Of a DNA stretch of 64,000 bases, positions 21,426 through 62,895 are shown piece after piece. Position numbers and translations under genes: made by a program. Location of the stretch: IMG/VR virus record IMGVR_UViG_3300017963_007659, positions 62,001 through 126,000 of that record. The stretch is one strand, 5' to 3'. The stretch is from a virus. Below the pieces are notes generated by a model. It saw only the letters and a program-made list of their open reading frames with translations, was not told the DNA's origin and did no database searches. How positions within the stretch are numbered: the stretch's first letter is position 1; each line of letters starts with the position of its first letter.

Positions 21426-21806
21426 ATGGGTTGGAATGGTCTTCTTGGAAATAACGGTCGCGTCAATCCCTCGGATGAAGAGGTGAAGAGAAACCGCGCC
21501 GCGAAAGCCCGGAAAACGGCTGAGGCTGAAGAGCTGTTCTCTCAGCCCAGACCCGCTACAGATTGGGACCGTATGCTCCAAACGGCAGTGGAAGAAGCTC
21601 AAGTCGATAGCGACTGGCATGAGCCGAAACCTGATCCCACGGACGAAGAGATCGCGGCCCTTCTCGCTTGGTTTGGCTCCCGTGACGAAGGCATGTCCTA
21701 CTTGACGTCATTCCTCGCCGAACGCGGTTGGAATACTCTTGAAGACCTCTGGACGATGCGCGAAGCCCTTCTCATCGTTCAATATCAGTACCTCTCTGGG
21801 AACTAA
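21426..21806 (+). CDS. hypothetical acidic protein
   Basis: A 126-aa soluble acidic protein (MGWNGLLGNNGRVNPSDEEV...) with Trp-rich helices in its second half. No family is recognised. It has its own sigma70-like promoter and a GGAGG ribosome-binding site. It ends 4 bp inside the convergent methyltransferase gene. Confidence 0.5.
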   Translation: MGWNGLLGNNGRVNPSDEEVKRNRAAKARKTAEAEELFSQPRPATDWDRMLQTAVEEAQVDSDWHEPKPDPTDEEIAALLAWFGSRDEGMSYLTSFLAERGWNTLEDLWTMREALLIVQYQYLSGN

Positions 21807-22939
21807 CCAAAGAGCTTCACGTAGGGAAGAATCCCGCTCTCAATCCTCTCCTTCGCTATCTCAGCATACTCAGGGTTCAGTTCTACCCCAATGAAATGCC
21901 GGTCGTTCTTCACGCACACCAAACCAGTCGTTCCTGAGCCGCAGAAGGGGTCCAGGACGGTCGCTGGGACAGGAGTAGTCTCTTCGCACTCACAGGTTCT
22001 CCACGGAGCACCACAGGAGGAACAGACGCCTTCTGAGCTGGTTCCTGCCCGTATCATCGGAGTGATGAGGGCTTCCGGAAAAGTGGCGAAGTGGGAACCC
22101 TTGAAGGGCTGAGGATTGACATGAAACACGTTTGTTGGGTCCTGCTCCTTCAAGAAGTCACCCAGGATATCAGGGTGGTTTTCTGCCAACCACAGAGGAA
22201 GAGCAGTAGAATCCTCCACATGCCAAACGGATCGCCTGTTCCGCTTCTTGTACAGGGTCTCGCACTTCTCCTCGGAGCCAGGACCTCCCTTGCTAATCTG
22301 CTCCTGTCTCTTGAAGTTGTTCCCAGCTGCGTGGTCGGAGACGGCGTCTTCCTTGATCGCTTCGTGGTCGTAGAAGTAGTACCTACTCTTAGAGAACATG
22401 AAAACATTCTCGAAAGACCTTGTACAACGATCTCGAACCGGTTCAGGCATACAAGAACCTCCACGATAGTGAGGACCAGATATGCCTTTTGCCCATATAA
22501 GGTCTTGCCTGAGATAGTAGCCAGCATCCCGTAAGGCAAAAGCAACCTTCCAGGGTATACCTATCAAATCCTTCGGTTTGAGACCAAAGTCCGAGGCATC
22601 TACTTTGGCCCATCGTTTGACAGTCTTTTGTCCCTTCTCGTCACCTTTCCCTTTACGGCTTTCCCAATGCCCATGTCCCTTCGCTTGTGCATAGCTGTCA
22701 CCTAGAACAACAAACAAGGTCCCATCATTCCGGAGGACGCGATGAACTTCCTTGAAGACCTCTACAAGAGTCTGTACGAAAGCCTCTGGAGTGTCCTCCA
22801 GACCTATCTGTCCGTTAATATCGTAATCACGCAGATTCCAATACGGAGGACTCGTCACACAGCAGTGCACAGACTGGTCAGGGATCTCCCGTAGCTTCTC
22901 TTTGGCGTCCCCTACAAGAATCTCGTACCGACTTGTCAT
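21803..22939 (-). CDS. DNA N4/N6 methyltransferase
   Basis: A 378-aa protein. The catalytic motif TSPPYWNLRDY is at about residues 29-39 and the SAM-binding motif DPFCGSGTTG is near residue 332. This order (catalytic motif first) is that of the beta class of amino-methyltransferases, and SPPYW is frequent in N4-cytosine enzymes. A CSSCGAPWRTCEC zinc-like insert precedes the SAM motif. The ATG at 22939 overlaps the stop of the upstream gene as ATGA. Probable role: self-protection of phage DNA against host restriction. No restriction partner is seen. Confidence 0.85.
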   Translation of the reverse strand: MTSRYEILVGDAKEKLREIPDQSVHCCVTSPPYWNLRDYDINGQIGLEDTPEAFVQTLVEVFKEVHRVLRNDGTLFVVLGDSYAQAKGHGHWESRKGKGDEKGQKTVKRWAKVDASDFGLKPKDLIGIPWKVAFALRDAGYYLRQDLIWAKGISGPHYRGGSCMPEPVRDRCTRSFENVFMFSKSRYYFYDHEAIKEDAVSDHAAGNNFKRQEQISKGGPGSEEKCETLYKKRNRRSVWHVEDSTALPLWLAENHPDILGDFLKEQDPTNVFHVNPQPFKGSHFATFPEALITPMIRAGTSSEGVCSSCGAPWRTCECEETTPVPATVLDPFCGSGTTGLVCVKNDRHFIGVELNPEYAEIAKERIESGILPYVKLFG

Positions 22940-23190
22940 GGACAAAGGACCACACAGGGACGGGCGTCTTCCCGCATGTCGTCCTCTGTGTAACCTTCCT
23001 CCTCCAGCTCTTCTGTGAGCTTCAGGAAATGAACCGAAATCTCGTAGCCTTCTTTGAGGTAGCCTTGGTCTGTGGATACAGCATACAGCTCCCCGTAGGC
23101 ATTGCCCTCAGCATCAGAAGCAACGAGAACGACTGTGTTCTCATCTACAGTCTGGAGTACTTTGATCAGCTCACCTGCCCGCATTTTCAT
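22936..23190 (-). CDS. hypothetical acidic protein
   Basis: An 84-aa protein beginning MKMRAGELIKVLQTVDENTV. The 'm..geLi..L...d.nt.V' opening is shared by many small uncharacterised phage proteins. GGGGAGAGT precedes the ATG. It is translationally coupled (ATGA) to the methyltransferase downstream. Confidence 0.55.
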   Translation of the reverse strand: MKMRAGELIKVLQTVDENTVVLVASDAEGNAYGELYAVSTDQGYLKEGYEISVHFLKLTEELEEEGYTEDDMREDARPCVVLCP

Positions 23191-23267: not shown

Positions 23268-24194
23268 TCACACCAAGAACTGCCCACAGGCAGCCATGAC
23301 CTCGCTACCTGGAGATGTCTGCACCTTCACCCTCGGAAGCTCCTTCAAGAATAGCTCAGACACCTCATCGAACCGCTGTGATTCAGTGAATGGCGACCCT
23401 GAACACTGGTTGTAGCGGAGCAGCCGCAGCTCCAGGTCTGGACGTTCGGTAAAGAACCTCATGAGCTGCTCTATCTCCTCTGGAGAGTCGTTGATCCCCT
23501 CGAAGAGTAGCAGGTGACAGATGAGGGAGTTAGGCACCTTCCAGGAGCCTCTCAGGCGGTCCAGACGCTCTTGAAACCTGCTTCCATGCTTCCCCATGAG
23601 GAAGCACCTCGTCTCCTCGTTCAGAGACCCCAGAGAGATGAATAGGCGCACCAACGGGCGAGTCCTATCCTGCTCATTCTGGACTTCCGGAATCGTCTGG
23701 ACTTCCTTTACGAGCATGTCCAGGAGGTACTCTGGCATATTCTTGAAGTCGTAGTCAGGGAAGGAGGTGCCGACATCCACACAGTCCAGCCCTGTAGCCT
23801 TCTGGTGGTCTTTGAGGACACTCCGAAGAATCGAGGAAGTGACACAGCAGAGACTGCCTATCTCTGCCAGGGGCTCTCCCATCCCCATCCAAGCCAGCTT
23901 GACCTTCTTCTTCGTGATCGCCCGCCGATAGGTCGTCGCGTAGCTGATAGCATGCGAGAGGTTCTCTTCGATAGTCCACGGTTCGATCCGCTGGTACTTG
24001 CAGCCCTTCGTAGAGAGCATACAGAACTTGCAGTTCATCTTGCAACCGTAGGAGCAGGAGGCGAAGACGCTGTACTTCTCGCTGGCTTCGGATCCGAGAC
24101 CGGAACAGCCACCAACGTCTTTGATAGCCGTCTCTGAGAAGTCAGAGTGAATGAACTTGTAGACGGACCCGTCTTTAGTCGTCTTGACTTCCAT
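23268..24194 (-). CDS. RlmN/Cfr-like radical SAM protein
   Basis: A 308-aa protein. The radical SAM cluster motif GCKMNCKFC gives Cys51, Cys55 and Cys58 (CxxxCxxC). GMGEPL follows at about 104-109 and AACGQ close to the C-terminus (about 302-306). These are the hallmarks of the RlmN/Cfr family, which methylates C2 or C8 of A2503 in 23S rRNA (RlmN also A37 of some tRNAs) using a methyl-carrying Cys in the C-terminal motif. The protein lacks the usual extra N-terminal domain. The start at 24194 follows AAGGAGATACGA. Phage-encoded members could act on host ribosomes or tRNA. Confidence 0.8.
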   Translation of the reverse strand: MEVKTTKDGSVYKFIHSDFSETAIKDVGGCSGLGSEASEKYSVFASCSYGCKMNCKFCMLSTKGCKYQRIEPWTIEENLSHAISYATTYRRAITKKKVKLAWMGMGEPLAEIGSLCCVTSSILRSVLKDHQKATGLDCVDVGTSFPDYDFKNMPEYLLDMLVKEVQTIPEVQNEQDRTRPLVRLFISLGSLNEETRCFLMGKHGSRFQERLDRLRGSWKVPNSLICHLLLFEGINDSPEEIEQLMRFFTERPDLELRLLRYNQCSGSPFTESQRFDEVSELFLKELPRVKVQTSPGSEVMAACGQFLV

Positions 24195-24459
24195 TCGTAT
24201 CTCCTTCTGGTGCGTCTGTCGTACATTTCTCACACAGAACAAGTCCCACCACATCTACGTGTTGGTCGATCAGCGTGCCACATCCAAAACACGCGCGGGT
24301 ATGAATGCTTGCTGCCTTCCACGAACAAGACCGGGGACGTTCTAGGGCTCTCTCCTGCTGTAGCTGTCCCAGAAGATACTCAGCATGCTCCTTCGGATTT
24401 CCTGGAGGAAGGTCATAGACAAGGATGTTCAAAAGCTCAAACAGCCGGTCTTCATCCAT
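24175..24459 (-). CDS. small zinc-finger-like protein
   Basis: A 94-aa protein. Helical N-terminal half; the C-terminal half contains ACFGCGTLI and LCEKC, a two-CxxC zinc-ribbon-like arrangement. It starts on the overlapping stop/start (ATGA) with the upstream gene, and its 3' end overlaps the RlmN-like gene start by 20 bp. Co-translation with that gene is likely. Function unknown. Confidence 0.5.
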   Translation of the reverse strand: MDEDRLFELLNILVYDLPPGNPKEHAEYLLGQLQQERALERPRSCSWKAASIHTRACFGCGTLIDQHVDVVGLVLCEKCTTDAPEGDTNGSQDD

Positions 24460-24963: not shown

Positions 24964-25047
24964 TCACAGGCATGAATCGAAGAGAATCGCTCCTACGACT
25001 AGCCCAACAAAGATGACCAGAACCCCGTACTTATCCCACCAAGGCAT
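24964..25047 (-). CDS. 27-residue single-span membrane microprotein
   Basis: A very short frame starting on the last base of the polymerase stop codon (TGATG overlap). It begins MPWWDKYGVLVIF, continues as one hydrophobic helix (residues about 8-23) and ends in SCL. Coupled translation from the polymerase gene, the coherent membrane span, and the following gene's ribosome-binding site beginning right after it support a real gene. Function unknown. Confidence 0.45.
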   Translation of the reverse strand: MPWWDKYGVLVIFVGLVVGAILFDSCL

Positions 25048-27938
25048 CAGTTCCACACATGCCCTTCTTGCTTCGGCCAAGCCACCCCGTCCGTGACCTG
25101 CTGCTCCAGCCATCCCCAGATCTCCGTGAACTCTTTCTCAGTGCGGTCAAAGCTCTTGCAGTTGCCATACTTGAAGCCAATATCGAAGTCGACAGCCAAG
25201 GGCACGATCATCTCGATACCGAACATCTCCTTCAAGCATGAAGTATCCATGAAGATACGCTCAGCCGTTTCGATGTACTCACGGAGAGCATCAGCATCGT
25301 AGGGGATCTCCGCTATGATGGAGTCGTGAACCAGGTTGACGATCTTCCAATCCTTGCCCTTCGCTTCGATGTACTGCTGAAGTCGGATACCAGCTATGAG
25401 GTTATAATCCGAGCTGGCAGCCTGGATGGGGGAGTTGCGCGCTTGGCGATTCCCACGTCCCGCGTTGCCTTCAGCGTACTCATGAGCGAGATGGCGACGT
25501 CGACCCATGGGAGAGGTGACATACCCCTTCGTCTGAGCAGCCTTCTCAGCCATAAGCAACCAGGCGTGAACGTCGGGGAACTGTGCGAAGAAGGTGTCCA
25601 GAAGCTCCTGAGCCTTCTCAACCTCAACCCCAAGGTTCTTGGCGAGTGTCTTGACATGCTGCCCGAACATGATCCCGAAGACGATTCTCTTGGCGTCCTG
25701 TCGCTGGACAGACGTCACGTCTTCGATGGGAATCTGATGCATCAGTGCAGCGGTCTGTCTATGCACGTCGCACTCGAATTTGACTCGCTTCTTGTTCTCC
25801 TCTGTTGGATTCGCTATGTACTCAGCCTTGACCTTCTCCATGTTGCGGAAGACCTTGGCGTAGTTCTTATCTTGTGCGATCTGGACAGCCCATCTTACCT
25901 CAGATTGAGCTACGTCCATCTGGACTAGTAGACGCCCATGAGGGACGCAGTACATGTTCTTGACGGCTTTCCTAGCCGCGACTGTAGCAGCGAGACGTCC
26001 CTTCCCTGGAACCTGCTGGAGGTTCACCTGCTCCGAGCTTGTTCTCCCAGAGGTGACACGGCACGAGGTGAAGCTAGAACGCATTCTCCCGTCTGCACAC
26101 TCCCCATCAGGACCTTCCCCATGGATTCGAGCATTGACGCTCTTGGTGTAGCTGGTATCGAGCTTGTAGAGCCCTTTGTACTCGTAAACGAGGTCGACGA
26201 TGTGCTGGGTTGGAGTGACCTCCACGTCCTCTGGGAGGTCGTCGTCACTCTTGTTTCGCTCGAATAGCGCGGTGTTGATCTCTGGCTGCGGGATCTCCGC
26301 TCCTGTGATAGGGTCTATCTTCGGCTTGCTCCATCCCAGAGGCTCAATCTTGAGCACATCGATGAGCAGAGTGATGAGACATTCTTTCTTGTCTATGTCC
26401 AAGACCCAGGGACTACCAAAGAGACCTGCCATCCCCGCAGCCTTGGTCTTCCCAAGGTGGAGAGTATTGGCTTGCTGGACCTCTGGCAAAGAAAACAGCT
26501 CCTCCTTGATCTCTTTCATCCTCTGCTTGATCGGAGACAACTCCCCACAGAGCATACGGAGATGAGGGACGTCAATCTGGAAGCCGTTGCGTTCGATAGA
26601 CTCGAAAGCGCAGATGAGCGGTCCGTGCATGTGCACATTGAAATTCAGGACACGCTCTCTTCCTCCCTCTTCCTTATCAGCTACGTCAAGAAGCGCGCGT
26701 GCCAGCCGATGCGGCACATACCCATCCATCGCACAGTACTCTCGGAAACCGGTATCGAACAGGGAAATCTTATCGAAGTCCTGTCGCTTCTTCTTCATAC
26801 CGGAGTCCTCGAACTTCGTCCATCCGATATAGTCATTGGCTAGCTTCGCCAACGACATGGGCTTGTCACTCTTTGGAATTCGCTTGAGACGCTGCTCGTC
26901 CACGCAGTGCGCTAGGAACATCGTATCCAGCAGAGAGGCGTTCAGCGGCATACGTGCCGTTCCCAGGTCCGGATGGATACAGGTGCGCAGCATAGCCAGG
27001 TCGAACTTGAGGTAGTTCCCTGTGACCCACTGGAAGGCGTCTGTAGGCGTCGTCAGCAGCCGAATGACCTCAGCCTGTACCTGTGGCAGTTCTGTCGGAG
27101 ACCAAGGAGACTCAGGGTGCATGTACGGGATGAGTGTGGTGATCATCCCGTCATTGCAGAACTGAATCATGGACACTTCATTCTTGAAGCGATGAAGTCC
27201 CCCTCTTGTCTCCGTATCGAAGGCGAGAATCCCATCGATAGCAGGAGTCGTCAAGTAGCTATCGACTACCGTCTTGAGCTTCTCCAGCGTATCGACATAG
27301 AAGTAGTGACCGTCTTTGAGCCAATCGACACTCGGGTCTTCGTCTACGAGCTTCTTGGCTGTCTTCAGGACGTTAGTGTACTTCTGTGTCCAGGAAGCTT
27401 TGGCTGTGGGTTCGTGCTGACGAGCGATGAAGGAGGGGTGAACGTTGGCGAGATAGGTGACGCCATCCTTCTCGACGTAGCGACCTTGAGCACGGAGAAC
27501 TCCCGCTGAAGCTAGCTCCGGAGCGAGCGCCTTGATTGCCGTCCCTCCGAGCATCACGACAACCTTCGGCTTATGCCGCTGGATCTCTTCAAGAAGATAG
27601 GGAACGCAGTGTCTCACCTCATCGGGGTTGGGAGTCTGATTACGAAGGGGACGGCACTTACAGACGTTCGCCAGAGCGTAGTCTCCGAGAATACCGGCTT
27701 CCTGCATGCAAGCACGATGAATCTGACCAGAGACCCCGACTAGCGGTCTCCCCCTCGTGCCATCTGGATGCACATAGGCGTCCTCGTCGGCTCCGAGAGC
27801 TTCAGCGACGAAGAAGATGTCTGGTTGCCCTTCGATCTCGGTTGGGCTATACCAGACGATGTTTCCTGTGAACTGAGGGTGGAGTGAGCATCCAGGGCAA
27901 CACACCCGGTCCTGCTCTGCTCTATAGTCGAGACGCAT
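25047..27938 (-). CDS. UDG-DNA polymerase I fusion
   Basis: A 963-aa protein. Residues 1-205 resemble family 4/5 uracil-DNA glycosylase: CCPGC (13-17), AEALGADED (45-53), GRPLVG (63-68), CKC (93-95), Cys111, and NVHPSF (165-170). The Cys set fits an Fe-S cluster. Residues about 235-420 are a 3'-5' exonuclease (FDTETRGG, Asp241/Glu243). Residues about 435-960 are the family A polymerase: motif A MDVAQSEVR (Asp675), motif B KRIVFGIMFG (750-759), motif C LVHDS (His871, Asp872). No 5'-nuclease domain is present. It is the likely replicative polymerase. An AGTCAAAG promoter lies about 40 bp upstream. Confidence 0.9.
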   Translation of the reverse strand: MRLDYRAEQDRVCCPGCSLHPQFTGNIVWYSPTEIEGQPDIFFVAEALGADEDAYVHPDGTRGRPLVGVSGQIHRACMQEAGILGDYALANVCKCRPLRNQTPNPDEVRHCVPYLLEEIQRHKPKVVVMLGGTAIKALAPELASAGVLRAQGRYVEKDGVTYLANVHPSFIARQHEPTAKASWTQKYTNVLKTAKKLVDEDPSVDWLKDGHYFYVDTLEKLKTVVDSYLTTPAIDGILAFDTETRGGLHRFKNEVSMIQFCNDGMITTLIPYMHPESPWSPTELPQVQAEVIRLLTTPTDAFQWVTGNYLKFDLAMLRTCIHPDLGTARMPLNASLLDTMFLAHCVDEQRLKRIPKSDKPMSLAKLANDYIGWTKFEDSGMKKKRQDFDKISLFDTGFREYCAMDGYVPHRLARALLDVADKEEGGRERVLNFNVHMHGPLICAFESIERNGFQIDVPHLRMLCGELSPIKQRMKEIKEELFSLPEVQQANTLHLGKTKAAGMAGLFGSPWVLDIDKKECLITLLIDVLKIEPLGWSKPKIDPITGAEIPQPEINTALFERNKSDDDLPEDVEVTPTQHIVDLVYEYKGLYKLDTSYTKSVNARIHGEGPDGECADGRMRSSFTSCRVTSGRTSSEQVNLQQVPGKGRLAATVAARKAVKNMYCVPHGRLLVQMDVAQSEVRWAVQIAQDKNYAKVFRNMEKVKAEYIANPTEENKKRVKFECDVHRQTAALMHQIPIEDVTSVQRQDAKRIVFGIMFGQHVKTLAKNLGVEVEKAQELLDTFFAQFPDVHAWLLMAEKAAQTKGYVTSPMGRRRHLAHEYAEGNAGRGNRQARNSPIQAASSDYNLIAGIRLQQYIEAKGKDWKIVNLVHDSIIAEIPYDADALREYIETAERIFMDTSCLKEMFGIEMIVPLAVDFDIGFKYGNCKSFDRTEKEFTEIWGWLEQQVTDGVAWPKQEGHVWN

Positions 27939-28061: not shown

Positions 28062-28832
28062 TCACTCGGTCACCTTTCCGTGGGCGAAAAGCTGAGGCAT
28101 TCGTTGGGATGATTCCAAGCGCTTTTTCCCGAGAGCGAACACTTCAGGGTCTTTCTCACAGACCCAAAAGCTACGCCCCAAGCTGCGCGCGGCTACCGCT
28201 GTGGTGAACGATCCAGCGAATGGGTCAACAACGAGGTCTCCGGGGTTGGAGTGCGCCTGTAAGATGATCTCATAGAGTTGTGTCGGCTTCTGAGCCGAGA
28301 CGATCTTCTGATGCATGACCTCGGTCACGTCCGTCCACACATTGGAGCGTCTCTTGAAGGTGCTGTGTGGTTTGTACTTCTTGTTCTTGAGCACGTTCTG
28401 CGTCATCTCGGAATGCTGTTCAGTCAGGTAGGGCTTGTTGAAAATCGCAGGCTTCTCCCCGCGCACCAACCAGAGCATCTCCTCTCGGGTGAAGAGGTAG
28501 CGGTCAGCCACTCCGTAGCCGCGACTCTTCTTCCAAGTGATGAAGTCGCGGAGACGCCACTCCTTGAACTCATCCTCGACAGTAGCCGCGAACTTCAAGA
28601 ATGCCCTGTTCTTGTGTGATCCAATCCCGCCCCACATGAGGACCGAACCTCCCTCCAGGACGAAGTTCTGGCACCCTTCCACGAAGTCGTAGAGGAATGT
28701 CAGGAGCTGCTTCTCATCCAGGTTGTCATAGTCATCAGAGACAACTTGCCCATAGGGTGGGTCAGCGATGACGAGGAGCGTCTCAGGAGGGGCCTGCTCG
28801 AAGAAGTCTCCACAGATAGTGGTCTCTGCCAT
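28062..28832 (-). CDS. DNA adenine/cytosine-N4 methyltransferase
   Basis: A 256-aa protein. The catalytic motif ADPPYG is at 23-28 and the SAM motif DPFAGSFTTA at about 202-211, again the catalytic-first beta order. The SAM motif has Phe where the family nearly always has Gly (GSGTT), which may affect cofactor binding. AGGAGAGACG precedes the ATG. With the two other methyltransferases in this block it probably modifies phage DNA. Confidence 0.8.
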   Translation of the reverse strand: MAETTICGDFFEQAPPETLLVIADPPYGQVVSDDYDNLDEKQLLTFLYDFVEGCQNFVLEGGSVLMWGGIGSHKNRAFLKFAATVEDEFKEWRLRDFITWKKSRGYGVADRYLFTREEMLWLVRGEKPAIFNKPYLTEQHSEMTQNVLKNKKYKPHSTFKRRSNVWTDVTEVMHQKIVSAQKPTQLYEIILQAHSNPGDLVVDPFAGSFTTAVAARSLGRSFWVCEKDPEVFALGKKRLESSQRMPQLFAHGKVTE

Positions 28833-29447: not shown

Positions 29448-29465
29448 ACCCTACTTTGACTAGAT
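29448..29465 (-). promoter_or_regulatory. AGTCAAAG promoter, leaderless type
   Basis: AAAATCTAGTCAAAGTAGGGT directly abuts the ATG at 29447 on the - strand. It is a full match to the consensus, with the predicted +1 at the A of ATG. Confidence 0.75.
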
Positions 29466-30299
29466 TTTGAGCGCTATCCGCTTGACGTCTTCCGTCACGT
29501 CCATGTTCTTGTGAGCACAGACATCCGGCTTCGTCAGCCTCTCAACGATGAGGTCAGCGTAGTCCTGCTCAATCTCAGCCCCAATCCAACGACGACCGTA
29601 GGACTCACAGACAACGGCTGTCGTCCCGGAACCCATGAAGGGGTCCACCACCAAGTCTTCAAGATTGGTAGACATTGCTACCACGCGGTCCAGGATCTTC
29701 GTCGAGAGCACATTGGCTCTCCTCTCCATCTGCTTGAACTTCTTGTGTCGCACAGGAGAGATGTCCGTCCACACGTCTTTGAGAGATAGACCATCCGGAT
29801 GAAGCTTGCTCTTGTGCCCACCGTAGTCCTTGACGGTCTCTCCGCACTTGCGACAGACAGGGATGGGTGTGCGGATCTTCTTGAAGGTCTTGGGAGGTCC
29901 CTTGGTGTAGTAGAGCAGGCTGTAGTGGGCCGGATAGAGCCTACCCTTGATAGGCATAACCGTTGTCATCTCGATAGCAATCCAATGCCTGAAGGTTAGC
30001 CTCTTCTTCGAGAGGTAGGCTCCAAGAGGCACATTCCACTTTGGGAGGTTGTAGAGGAAGAAGGACCCTCCAGGCTTCAAGATTCGTACACACTCCTTGA
30101 TCCACTGATGACACCACGTCAGGTACTCCTCCTCTGGAAGAGCGTCGTTCGTCTGCGGTCCGTAGCTCTTTCCAATGTTGAAGGGAGGGTCGGCGAAGAC
30201 AGTATCGACGGAGAAGTCATCGATGGTCGCAAGGACGTCTAGGCAGTCTCCGTGATAGAGCTTACCAAAGGGAGTGGTGTGGTAGGGGTACATGGTCAT
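29460..30299 (-). CDS. DNA methyltransferase with zinc insert
   Basis: A 279-aa protein. Catalytic motif ADPPFN at 36-41 and SAM motif DPFMGSGTT near 218-226 (beta order; DPPF is common in N6-adenine and N4-cytosine enzymes). The centre carries CRKCGETVKDYGGHKSKLH, a C2H2-like cluster that could contribute to target recognition. The start overlaps the upstream stop as ATGA. Probable restriction-evasion role. Confidence 0.85.
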   Translation of the reverse strand: MTMYPYHTTPFGKLYHGDCLDVLATIDDFSVDTVFADPPFNIGKSYGPQTNDALPEEEYLTWCHQWIKECVRILKPGGSFFLYNLPKWNVPLGAYLSKKRLTFRHWIAIEMTTVMPIKGRLYPAHYSLLYYTKGPPKTFKKIRTPIPVCRKCGETVKDYGGHKSKLHPDGLSLKDVWTDISPVRHKKFKQMERRANVLSTKILDRVVAMSTNLEDLVVDPFMGSGTTAVVCESYGRRWIGAEIEQDYADLIVERLTKPDVCAHKNMDVTEDVKRIALKI

Positions 30300-59838: not shown

Positions 59839-62800
59839 ATGCGATATCCGCAGTATCTTGCGTCGAACGAGTTGACTGCGCTCGGACGAAAGACTCTTCT
59901 GGACCGATACGCTCGCAAGGCACCGAAGACGGCACCCGTAGAGCTTGGAGACCTCGTCATCCTTTGCACAGACAAGGAGTCTGGACAGAGGGAGATTGGC
60001 AGCGTCATCGGAGTCAACAACGATGACCGGACCGTCAATATTCGCGCGGAAGATGGGGAAGAGTACACCGTCGATGTGGAGGAGGTAGACAAGCCTCTGG
60101 AGACGGATCCTCAAGATGTGGTCCAGCGTGTCGCTCGCGCCCTATCGAAGGTTGAGGAGAAGCCTCGTCGCTGGGAGAACATCTTCAAGAAGCTGATGGG
60201 CAACTGGAAGTTCGTTCCAGCTGGTCGCATTCTCACCGGAGCAGGTATCCAGCAAGAGACGCCGCTCACCTTCTTCAACTGCAACGTCATCCCAGCTCCC
60301 AAGGATAGCCGAGAAGGGATCATCGACACAGCAAAGATTCTCGCGGAGCTGTTCTCCCGTGGGGCTGGCGTCGGGACCTACCTCTCCTCTCTGCGTCCTC
60401 GCTTCGCCTACGTGAAGGGTGTCAACGGACGCTCTTCCGGGGCTGTGAGCTGGGGGTCTCTGTACTCGCATCTCACGGGGCTCATTGAGCAAGGAGGCTG
60501 CGTCACTGGAGAGACTCTTGTAGCTACGTCTAAGGGTGATTTTCCAATCAAGAATCTTGTAGGAACGACACCAGACGTCTATTCTTATGACTGCTCCACA
60601 GAAAGGACTGTGCTCAAAACAGCGAAGTGGGTGGGTAAGACCGGGGATAGTCAAAGAATCCTACGACTTACGACAACCCAGGGTCTTATTCTTGAAGCTA
60701 CTCCTGACCATCTCATCCTGTGTGCTGACAAAAAGTATCGTCCTCTACAAGAATTGGAGGTAGGGACGGCACTGAATGTCGAGAGTGCTTCTATCCACCA
60801 TGTCCAATCCGTAGAAGACTGTGGGGAAGAAGACGTTTACGATCTCGAAGTCCCTGATACTCACAATTTCTTTGTATTCTCGAAGGGTTGTAAAGAGGGT
60901 GTCTTCATACACAACTCCCGTCGCGGTGCCGCAATGCTCGTTCTACACGTCTGGCACCCGGATGTGTACGAGTTCATTGAGTGCAAGAGGGAGCCCAAAG
61001 CTAAGCAGCTCGCTCTCCTGGCTGACAAGCTCGAATACGGCTTTGGTCTCACGGAGTTCGCTCAAGAAGCCAGAGATCTCGCGGGGCAATGGCCAGCTCA
61101 CATCCAGCACGCCAATCTCTCGGTTGGAATCACAGACGATTTCATGGAAGCTGTTATTCACGATCGGGACTGGCAGCTCGTCTTTCCTGATACGACAGTT
61201 CCGGAGTACACAGAGAAGTGGGATGGGGACCTCAAGAAGTGGCAAGAGGAAGGTCATCCAATCAAAGTCCACAAGGTAGTCAAGGCGCGCGACCTGTGGA
61301 ACAAGCTCATGTACTCCGCGTGGGACTCGGCTGAGCCGGGAGTCATCTACATCGATACGGTCAACAGTGAGAGTACCTCATGGTGGTACTGCAACATGCT
61401 GGCGACGAACCCTTGCGGAGAGCAGCCTCTCCCGAGCTGGTACGGTGTCTGTAACCTTGGAGCAATCAATCTCCCTCGCTTCCTCATGGAGGATCCAGAC
61501 GACCCGAACAAAGTCATCCTTGACAAGGAAGCCTACAAGAATGCGATCCATGTCTCCATGCGCTTCCTGGACAACGTTATCGACACCACTCCCTACTTCT
61601 TCGATGAGCAAGAATACAATGCGAAGCGTGAGCGTCGAGTTGGCTTGAGTCCCTTCATGGGGCTTGCCGAAGCTCTGGTCATTCTTGGTATTCGCTATGG
61701 GTCTGAGGAGGCGGTAGACTTCGTGGAGGAGGCTGGCTTGGTCGCGGCTTCAGAGTCCCTCAGAGCCAGCGTGGACCTCGCAGAAGAGAAGGGCTGCTGT
61801 GATGTGTTGGCTACTCCAGAGGACCGGGAGAAGTTCTTGGAGAGTCTGTATGTGCAACGTATTCTCCGGTATCTGCCTCCAGAGGACAACCAGGACTTGC
61901 AGTCACGGATTCGTGAGCATGGAGCCAGGAACGTGAGCTTCACGACCTCAGCGCCTACCGGGACCATCGGGACCATGGTGGCAACGTCTACCGGAATCGA
62001 GCCCTTCTTTCGTTTCGAGTACCGCCAGAACACCAATCTCGGAACCCATATCAAACGAGAGCGTGTTCTGGATGAATGGTATAGGCAACACGGTGAGAGC
62101 GCTGCTGTTCCGGATTACTTCGTGAGCGCTGGGGAGCTGACTCCAAAAGAGCACCTCGTCATGACTGCTGCGCTCCAGCGGTGGATTGACTCAGGTATCA
62201 GTAAGACCTACAACCTACCACAGGAGTATACACCAGAGGACATCGGAAAGATCTACATGGAGATCTGGAAACGTCGATGTAAGGGAGGCACGGTCTTCCG
62301 TGAAGGGTCTCGTACCGTTCAGGTTCTTGAGAGTCTCGACCCCAAGGAGAAGAAGACGTTCGAGATGAGCTTCCCGGAGAAGACTCCTGGACCGCCGAAG
62401 GGGGACAAGAAAGATGGTTCCACGTGGTCCATCGACTCTCCCTCTGGTACCCTGCACGCTACGTTCAATCAGTATCCGACGCCAGACAACCCCTTCGAGA
62501 CATTCCTGAGAATTGGGAAGGCAGGCTCTGATGTTGGAGCTATGACCGAAGCTTTCGGACGTGTCATCTCCCTCTTCCTCCAGATGAGAGGTCCAATCCG
62601 GCCCACAAGACGCTGTGAGCTTCTTGTCGAGCAGCTTGAGGGGATCGGTGGTCGAGACCAGGTTGGCTTCGGTCCAAATAAGATTCGTTCGATCCCTGAT
62701 GCGATTGCTAAGTCGATAAGTCGACATTTGCAGTCAATAGTAGGTAGGGACGATGACTTGTCATGCTCAGAAGATGAAGAAGAGAAACCAGCTTCAACTC

Positions 62801-62895
62801 ATGGCTTGGATATGTGTCCCGAGTGTGGTAATCTCGGATTGCGGTCGGAGGAAGGGTGCACGAGCTGCGCCTTCTGCGGCTATAGCAAATGCTGA
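59839..62895 (+). CDS. nrdJ: class II ribonucleotide reductase NrdJ with intein
   Basis: A 1018-aa precursor, 879 aa after intein removal. Key features are FNCNVIP (Cys148), NPCGEQPLPSWYGVCNLGAI (active-site radical Cys region), TTSAPTGTIGTMVATSTGIE, and the C-terminal zinc ribbon MCPECGN...GCTSCAFCGYSKC typical of adenosylcobalamin-dependent NrdJ. It converts ribonucleotides to deoxyribonucleotides for phage DNA synthesis and needs vitamin B12 but not oxygen. A Gly-Gly/Cys junction and an Asn/Ser junction mark an intein at residues 221-359. The start is ATG 59839 after GGAAAGA. Confidence 0.9.
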   Translation: MRYPQYLASNELTALGRKTLLDRYARKAPKTAPVELGDLVILCTDKESGQREIGSVIGVNNDDRTVNIRAEDGEEYTVDVEEVDKPLETDPQDVVQRVARALSKVEEKPRRWENIFKKLMGNWKFVPAGRILTGAGIQQETPLTFFNCNVIPAPKDSREGIIDTAKILAELFSRGAGVGTYLSSLRPRFAYVKGVNGRSSGAVSWGSLYSHLTGLIEQGGCVTGETLVATSKGDFPIKNLVGTTPDVYSYDCSTERTVLKTAKWVGKTGDSQRILRLTTTQGLILEATPDHLILCADKKYRPLQELEVGTALNVESASIHHVQSVEDCGEEDVYDLEVPDTHNFFVFSKGCKEGVFIHNSRRGAAMLVLHVWHPDVYEFIECKREPKAKQLALLADKLEYGFGLTEFAQEARDLAGQWPAHIQHANLSVGITDDFMEAVIHDRDWQLVFPDTTVPEYTEKWDGDLKKWQEEGHPIKVHKVVKARDLWNKLMYSAWDSAEPGVIYIDTVNSESTSWWYCNMLATNPCGEQPLPSWYGVCNLGAINLPRFLMEDPDDPNKVILDKEAYKNAIHVSMRFLDNVIDTTPYFFDEQEYNAKRERRVGLSPFMGLAEALVILGIRYGSEEAVDFVEEAGLVAASESLRASVDLAEEKGCCDVLATPEDREKFLESLYVQRILRYLPPEDNQDLQSRIREHGARNVSFTTSAPTGTIGTMVATSTGIEPFFRFEYRQNTNLGTHIKRERVLDEWYRQHGESAAVPDYFVSAGELTPKEHLVMTAALQRWIDSGISKTYNLPQEYTPEDIGKIYMEIWKRRCKGGTVFREGSRTVQVLESLDPKEKKTFEMSFPEKTPGPPKGDKKDGSTWSIDSPSGTLHATFNQYPTPDNPFETFLRIGKAGSDVGAMTEAFGRVISLFLQMRGPIRPTRRCELLVEQLEGIGGRDQVGFGPNKIRSIPDAIAKSISRHLQSIVGRDDDLSCSEDEEEKPASTHGLDMCPECGNLGLRSEEGCTSCAFCGYSKC
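60499..60915 (+). other. mini-intein inside NrdJ
   Basis: The 139-residue insert begins with Cys (CVTGETLVATSKGDF), contains LILEATPDHLIL (block B, TxxH) and VYDLEVPDTHNFFVF (block F), and ends VFIHN before Ser. These are the splicing blocks of an intein without a homing-endonuclease domain. The flanking extein QGG/SRRGA is a conserved NrdJ segment that is normally continuous. Self-splicing is expected, with Cys1, His291 (precursor numbering), Asn359 and Ser+1. Confidence 0.85.

Follow-up and report, generated by a model that had tools for sequence, protein, structure and literature searches.

An RlmN-like radical SAM protein family of large phages with the methyl-carrying cysteine of RlmN and without its second catalytic cysteine

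An RlmN-like protein without the second catalytic cysteine of RlmN (Cys118) is not a one-off but recurs in giant phages, and in all aligned members the first, methyl-carrying cysteine is kept. The member described here is encoded at 23268-24194 (minus strand) of a 64,000-nucleotide stretch, the window, of a 186,314-base virus contig. On the evidence of its sequence, its predicted fold, the catalytic residues retained and lost and a single loss on the tree, we regard it as an evenly balanced proposition that these proteins are a phage-borne sister clade of RlmN/Cfr that retains the part of the class A radical SAM mechanism in which a cysteine carries the methyl group and departs from it in the part that releases the product.

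Results

The gene runs from an ATG at 24194 to a stop at 23268 and encodes 308 amino acids. Since a Shine-Dalgarno sequence, AAGGAG (24201..24206, minus strand), directly precedes this ATG, we place the start here and not at 24254, which would give a longer ORF of 328 aa; in a pattern search of the window, the 21-nt stretch concerned occurred a single time. The contig also carries genes for a terminase (E = 4e-117), a portal (6e-117) and a major head protein (6e-54), so its source is a tailed phage and the protein is rightly called phage-encoded. It is the sole radical SAM gene detected on this phage contig. A separate 70-nt element occurs in seven plus-strand copies in the window (20549, 21370, 36648, 43624, 44114, 44525 and 44924); its layout of TTGACA, 17-18 nt, a TAGTGT-like box, GGAGG and ATG is probably that of a repeated phage promoter with a ribosome-binding site.

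The nearest characterised family is RlmN, by profile and by fold, which agrees with the first-pass description of an RlmN/Cfr-like protein. The NCBIfam model for RlmN, TIGR00048, matches with E = 1.4e-15 and 57.1 bits; its equivalog cut-off of 290 bits is reached neither by this protein nor in any of 18 phage contigs (0/18). The NCBIfam Cfr models score 38-43 bits against cut-offs of 468-550, and the general Pfam Radical_SAM model stays under its cut-off. A family profile built from 21 members and searched against the PDB retrieves Cfr and RlmN chains only at E <= 0.01 (best 1.1e-27), and a full-length profile match (E = 1.2e-8, residues 39-307) links the protein to the COG0820-like phage proteins of phrog_27142. 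The AF2 model, made from a 33-row alignment, has a mean pLDDT of 90.1 and a pTM of 0.89. It places N-terminal strands at residues 2-5, 11-15 and 21-25, like the beta-extension of RlmN/Cfr, ahead of a radical SAM barrel. Foldseek against the PDB returned RlmN structures as the nine top matches, led by 5hr7, a C118A RlmN crosslinked to tRNA; against a viral library the top two were an uncultured-phage COG0820 protein and a protein of 201phi2-1. Two hallmarks of class A radical SAM methylases are thus present, the CX3CX2C [4Fe-4S] motif in the sequence and the radical SAM fold in the model. As judged from sequence, membership of RlmN/Cfr itself is not supported.

The absence of the N-terminal domain, noted in the first-pass annotation, is confirmed: the TIGR00048 match begins at model position 101 of 355, and the first cluster cysteine is residue 51 where it is residue 125 in E. 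coli RlmN. In Cfr, this HhH2 domain binds rRNA. Truncation or a frameshift artefact was ruled out as the cause of the short protein, as the relatives are all equally short. Neither a separately encoded N-domain nor a second RlmN or radical SAM copy was found in searches of the phage contigs with PF04055 and TIGR00048; a location on another gene was rejected for the window's phage, which has no second radical SAM/RlmN match and whose ORF just upstream (24175-24459) looks unrelated by eye.

The three motifs reported earlier are all in place when numbered from ATG 24194. The CX3CX2C motif (C51, C55, C58; 24021..24044, minus strand, as for all residues below) is invariant in 33 sequences, GMGEPL (residues 104-109; 23868..23885) forms the SAM-binding loop, and AACGQ (A301-Q305) contains Cys303 (23286..23288), the equivalent of the methyl-carrying Cys355 of RlmN. 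The cluster cysteines, the GE of the SAM loop and the Cys355 equivalent are invariant across the 33 aligned proteins although the phage members share only 20-38% identity with the window protein, which argues for purifying selection on the catalytic core. Glu21 (24132..24134) is the proposed equivalent of RlmN Glu105, on the basis of a hand alignment (KDGSVYKFIHSDFSETAIKD) and the strand order of the AF2 model. In the window's subclade this hand-aligned column, which automatic aligners place differently, holds Glu in 9/11 and Gln in 2/11 rows; in the other subclade the Glu is clear in the automatic alignment (16/16).

At the position of RlmN Cys118 and Cfr Cys105 the window protein has Phe44 (24063..24065), seven residues before the first cluster cysteine, and its nearest upstream cysteine is Cys47 (24054..24056), both as first described. 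This position is occupied by F, I or V throughout the window's subclade (11/11 rows) and by Y throughout the other (16/16), so that none of the 27 phage-family representatives has a cysteine there; all 17 RlmN, Cfr and Cfr-like rows do, and the Cys355 position is cysteine in every row of both sets. A scan of cellular genome contigs returned mainly ordinary RlmN among the matches listed, and among these Cys118 was kept in 77/77 parsable RlmN loci. The alignment of the phage family contains no invariant cysteine beyond the three cluster ligands and Cys303. The idea that Cys47 might stand in for Cys118 fails as a general explanation, because relatives have C, M, S, A, I, V or D in its column. His227 (23514..23516), at the position of RlmN E278, is invariant in 21/21 phage proteins where 12/12 cellular RlmNs have Glu. 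As a substitute it is weakened by the protein of Tunturiibacter phage Tunturi_5, which carries this His together with Cys118, and it is therefore no simple replacement.

Relatives are widely scattered. With the 308-aa protein as tblastn query we found Klebsiella phage 05F01 (30% identity over 99%) and, at greater distance, Psa21, D6 and two Pseudomonas megaplasmids. A single-sequence scan of viral contigs gave no match and alignment queries were needed, which returned 32 loci and then 10 more; relatives used as queries added Phabio, 201phi2-1, CcrColossus, CcrPW, eight Brevundimonas phages, Tunturi_5 and ANB28. The resulting clade includes Klebsiella phage 05F01, 201phi2-1, Psa21, CcrColossus, the Brevundimonas jumbo phages and the two megaplasmids, with proteins of 281-347 aa, all without the N-domain. 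The megaplasmid genes, at L006 3884-4765 (pMPPla107) and in L008 (pPL1), lie among hypothetical genes and group with the same clade in the tree. A more divergent phage group (loci L040-L043) with Thr at the Cys118 position and TCGN in place of AACGQ is possibly a third subfamily and was kept out of the main counts. Two TnpB/IS605 OrfB-like proteins, recognised by eye only, were seen amid structural genes of the window's phage at L137 562-1743 and 3218-4411 (G000 contig, 126-130 kb).

The phylogeny proposed in the first-pass annotation places the window protein outside the RlmN/Cfr/Cfr-like clade, on the sister side of the branch. In a tree of 46 rows, a single branch separates the rows without Cys118 from all others (85/72; 86% of bootstrap trees), and Cfr and CfrD group with the RlmN and Cfr-like rows, apart from the phage clade; an earlier tree of 48 rows likewise had the phage rows all on one side (70/99). 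Read from these sequences, one change on the tree accounts for the loss of Cys118, with moderate support (85/72). Two short phage proteins, in Tunturi_5 (L145 2911-3909) and Stenotrophomonas phage ANB28 (L146 2872-3831, in a tRNA gene cluster), have no N-domain and keep Cys118. They fall on the RlmN/Cfr side, on long branches that make their placement unsure; being short and Cys118-positive, they indicate that loss of the N-domain does not force loss of Cys118 and that the two losses are separable.

The residues that would face the rRNA target have changed as well. In Cfr, N288 and R327 touch A2503 (PMC13001441), and both positions are unchanged in 17/17 rows with Cys118. In the window's subclade, N288 is replaced by R (11/11) and R327 by Q (11/11); the other subclade keeps N at the first position and has I or V at the second (16/16). 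These changes, together with the missing domain that holds rRNA in Cfr, disfavour a plain A2503 enzyme. The earlier suggestion of a phage rRNA methylase acting on A2503 is accordingly not borne out by the sequence data, which combine a tree position outside the RlmN/Cfr/Cfr-like clade, a score of 57 against 290 bits, the lack of an RNA-binding N-domain and two altered contacts, and A2503 is not supported as the target of the window protein.

Genes for N6/N4 DNA methylases and for a DNA polymerase that carries a uracil-DNA-glycosylase-like domain are neighbours of the window gene; other clade members are near nucleotide or NAD genes. The methylases (PF01555) are three, on both sides of the gene and within 9 kb (21803-22945, 28062-28832 and 29460-30299 (-)), and the polymerase (25047-27938, minus strand) belongs to family A and bears the domain, of the uracil-DNA-glycosylase superfamily, as an N-terminal fusion; in L124 and L126, stand-alone relatives of this domain occur close to the radical SAM gene. 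Further along, at 59839-62895 (plus strand), a 1018-aa ribonucleotide reductase-like ORF contains an apparent intein (CVTGETLVA start, end before HNSRRG), by eye only. No neighbouring gene or operon partner common to both subclades was found.

Several neighbourhoods point towards tRNA. An RtcB ligase and tRNA genes adjoin the radical SAM gene in Psa21, D6, L023, L024 and L034, a Thg1-like gene does so in L126, and L013 has an Rnl1-type RNA ligase and a polynucleotide kinase nearby. In L124, L126, L131, L133 and ANB28 the gene lies within tRNA clusters, a location found in three to four clades. CcrColossus and Domovoi have a CCA-adding enzyme a few kb off and no closeness of the radical SAM gene to tRNA genes, and no tRNA genes were found in the window's own phage. 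Large phages often carry such RNA-repair and tRNA-related genes. For this reason, and because closeness to tRNA genes compared with random positions, with one representative per clade, gives a combined Fisher p of only 0.03 to 0.065 depending on the contigs included, we treat the suggestive linkage to tRNA as a lead and not as a result. Thg1-like tRNA-His guanylyltransferase genes were also seen in 10 of the 29 phage records with the radical SAM gene (the contigs behind L012, L013, L014, L020, L025, L031, L041, L126, L129 and L131).

Discussion

In RlmN, the methyl group of SAM is passed to C355, which is deprotonated by E105, and a methylene radical then adds to the adenine; C118 is the base whose action lets the covalent adduct break (PMC9692996, PMC13001441). 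The first-pass annotation was right to call Cys118 catalytic, but in naming the absence of a methyl-accepting Cys as a ground for refutation it merged two residues: C355 accepts the methyl group and C118 resolves the crosslink (PMC9692996). We looked for the methyl-accepting Cys and it is present as the invariant Cys303, so that its reading is not refuted on this point. With the first cysteine kept and the second lost, either the chemistry or the target has probably changed. The remark that the reaction may have changed therefore holds as a possibility, given Phe44 in place of Cys118 and the absence of the second catalytic Cys in 27/27 representatives.

From the conservation of Cys303, the probable Glu21, the cluster and the SAM loop, we infer that what has probably changed is product release, with the first half-reaction left intact. 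A first SAM would methylate Cys303 by SN2 with Glu21 as base, and a second SAM would undergo reductive cleavage at the [4Fe-4S] cluster, giving a 5'-deoxyadenosyl radical. This radical would then abstract a hydrogen from methyl-Cys303, and the methylene radical would add to the substrate, of nucleobase type, at an sp2 carbon. At product release a proton is taken by Cys118 in RlmN; with Phe there in the window protein, and Tyr, Ile or Val in relatives, release would have to use another acceptor (a group of the substrate, water or another residue) or pass through an intermediate that needs none. A small RNA would be the likeliest substrate, with tRNA as the first candidate, ahead of 23S rRNA modified in the way of RlmN. 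Stated more broadly, we lean only slightly against the idea that these are cysteine-carried radical methylases which work without the second Cys, either by methylating a new substrate (tRNA or nucleotide) with the help of another proton acceptor or by a deliberate stop at a protein-nucleic acid crosslink.

Other readings have to be weighed against this. A conventional methylase of the RlmN type, which modifies 23S A2503 and/or tRNA A37 with the help of another base and raises or protects m2A during infection, would fit the family and fold assignment and the retained catalytic core residues. We nevertheless think it unlikely, since the HhH2 domain is absent, the otherwise invariant A2503 contacts are changed and the proteins branch outside the RlmN/Cfr/Cfr-like rows; moreover, RlmN needs C118 for m2A formation, with no m2A on tRNA from the C118A protein (PMC5130265). 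A different reaction altogether is conceivable because RlmN C118A and Cfr C105A/S stop at the stage of a protein-RNA crosslink (PMC9692996, PMC13001441). The protein would in that case be a radical SAM enzyme whose substrate is a nucleotide, nucleoside, DNA base, peptide or metabolite and whose Cys303 was kept for a different role. The joint loss of Cys118, the N-domain and the RNA contacts speaks for this, as do the unlike residues of the two subclades at the same contact positions (R/Q versus N/I,V) and the DNA methylase, polymerase, nucleotide and NAD genes nearby. Against it, the parts needed for methyl transfer, namely Cys303, the proposed Glu21 and the AACG context, are the very ones that stay conserved, and no neighbour is common to both subclades; we hold it to be a serious but rather improbable alternative.

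The stalled mutants also suggest a single-turnover crosslinker, which would form a Cys-CH2 bridge to RNA or DNA and stay attached to block or tag its target. RlmN C118A and Cfr C105A behave in this way (PMC9692996, PMC13001441), and the top fold match is the crosslinked C118A structure. The replacing residue, however, is a bulky F or Y, which could get in the way of the incoming substrate, where the mutants have the small A or S; besides, there is no sign of suicide use elsewhere, and many turnovers would require many molecules, so that we consider this very unlikely. Even less probable is a decayed or non-enzymatic relic: it would account for the missing catalytic Cys and domain, but the ORF is intact with a Shine-Dalgarno sequence, and its core motifs are conserved in phages far apart, at a mean identity of 20-38% to the window protein.

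Compared with RlmN, the C2-methyltransferase of 23S A2503 and tRNA A37, the phage protein shares the radical SAM core including the beta-extension, CX3CX2C, GMGEPL, AACGQ with the methyl-carrying Cys and, if Glu21 is rightly assigned, probably E105, and finds there its best fold match. It differs in lacking the HhH2 domain and Cys118, in having His for Glu278, in a changed R of the VRxxxG stretch and in a C-terminal tail that ends after AACGQF. Cfr and Cfr(D), C8-methyltransferases of 23S A2503, have the same core and a RYN motif in common with the window protein, which departs from them in the ways given for RlmN, their N-domain and second Cys (C105) again being absent. Also close are jumbo-phage proteins annotated as 'Fe-S-cluster redox domain-containing' (COG0820; phrog_27142), such as 201phi2-1 gp434, CcrColossus gp283 and that of Psa21, which are likewise short, without a Cys118 equivalent and with the C355 equivalent; they belong to the other subclade, with Tyr at the Cys118 position, MARGEPL, ASCGTF and 20-24% identity to the window protein. 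The Tunturi_5 and ANB28 proteins are similarly phage-borne and without the N-domain, but they keep Cys118 and stand on the RlmN/Cfr side of the tree.

Single members of the clade are thus already annotated, under database labels as RlmN-like or Fe-S redox proteins. A literature search, mostly among papers outside subscription journals, found nothing on phage RlmN-like proteins without Cys118 or on a clade-wide loss of the second Cys. For genes of this clade, the record labels 'rRNA large subunit methyltransferase N' or 'Fe-S redox' are likely misleading. In RlmN and Cfr, resolution of the covalent protein-RNA intermediate is considered to depend strictly on the second Cys. A clade in distant large phages that has the first Cys and not the second raises the question of what else resolves this intermediate, or which other reaction the core may carry out, and since members occur in cultured phages with laboratory strains as hosts, such as 201phi2-1 and CcrColossus, this question is testable.
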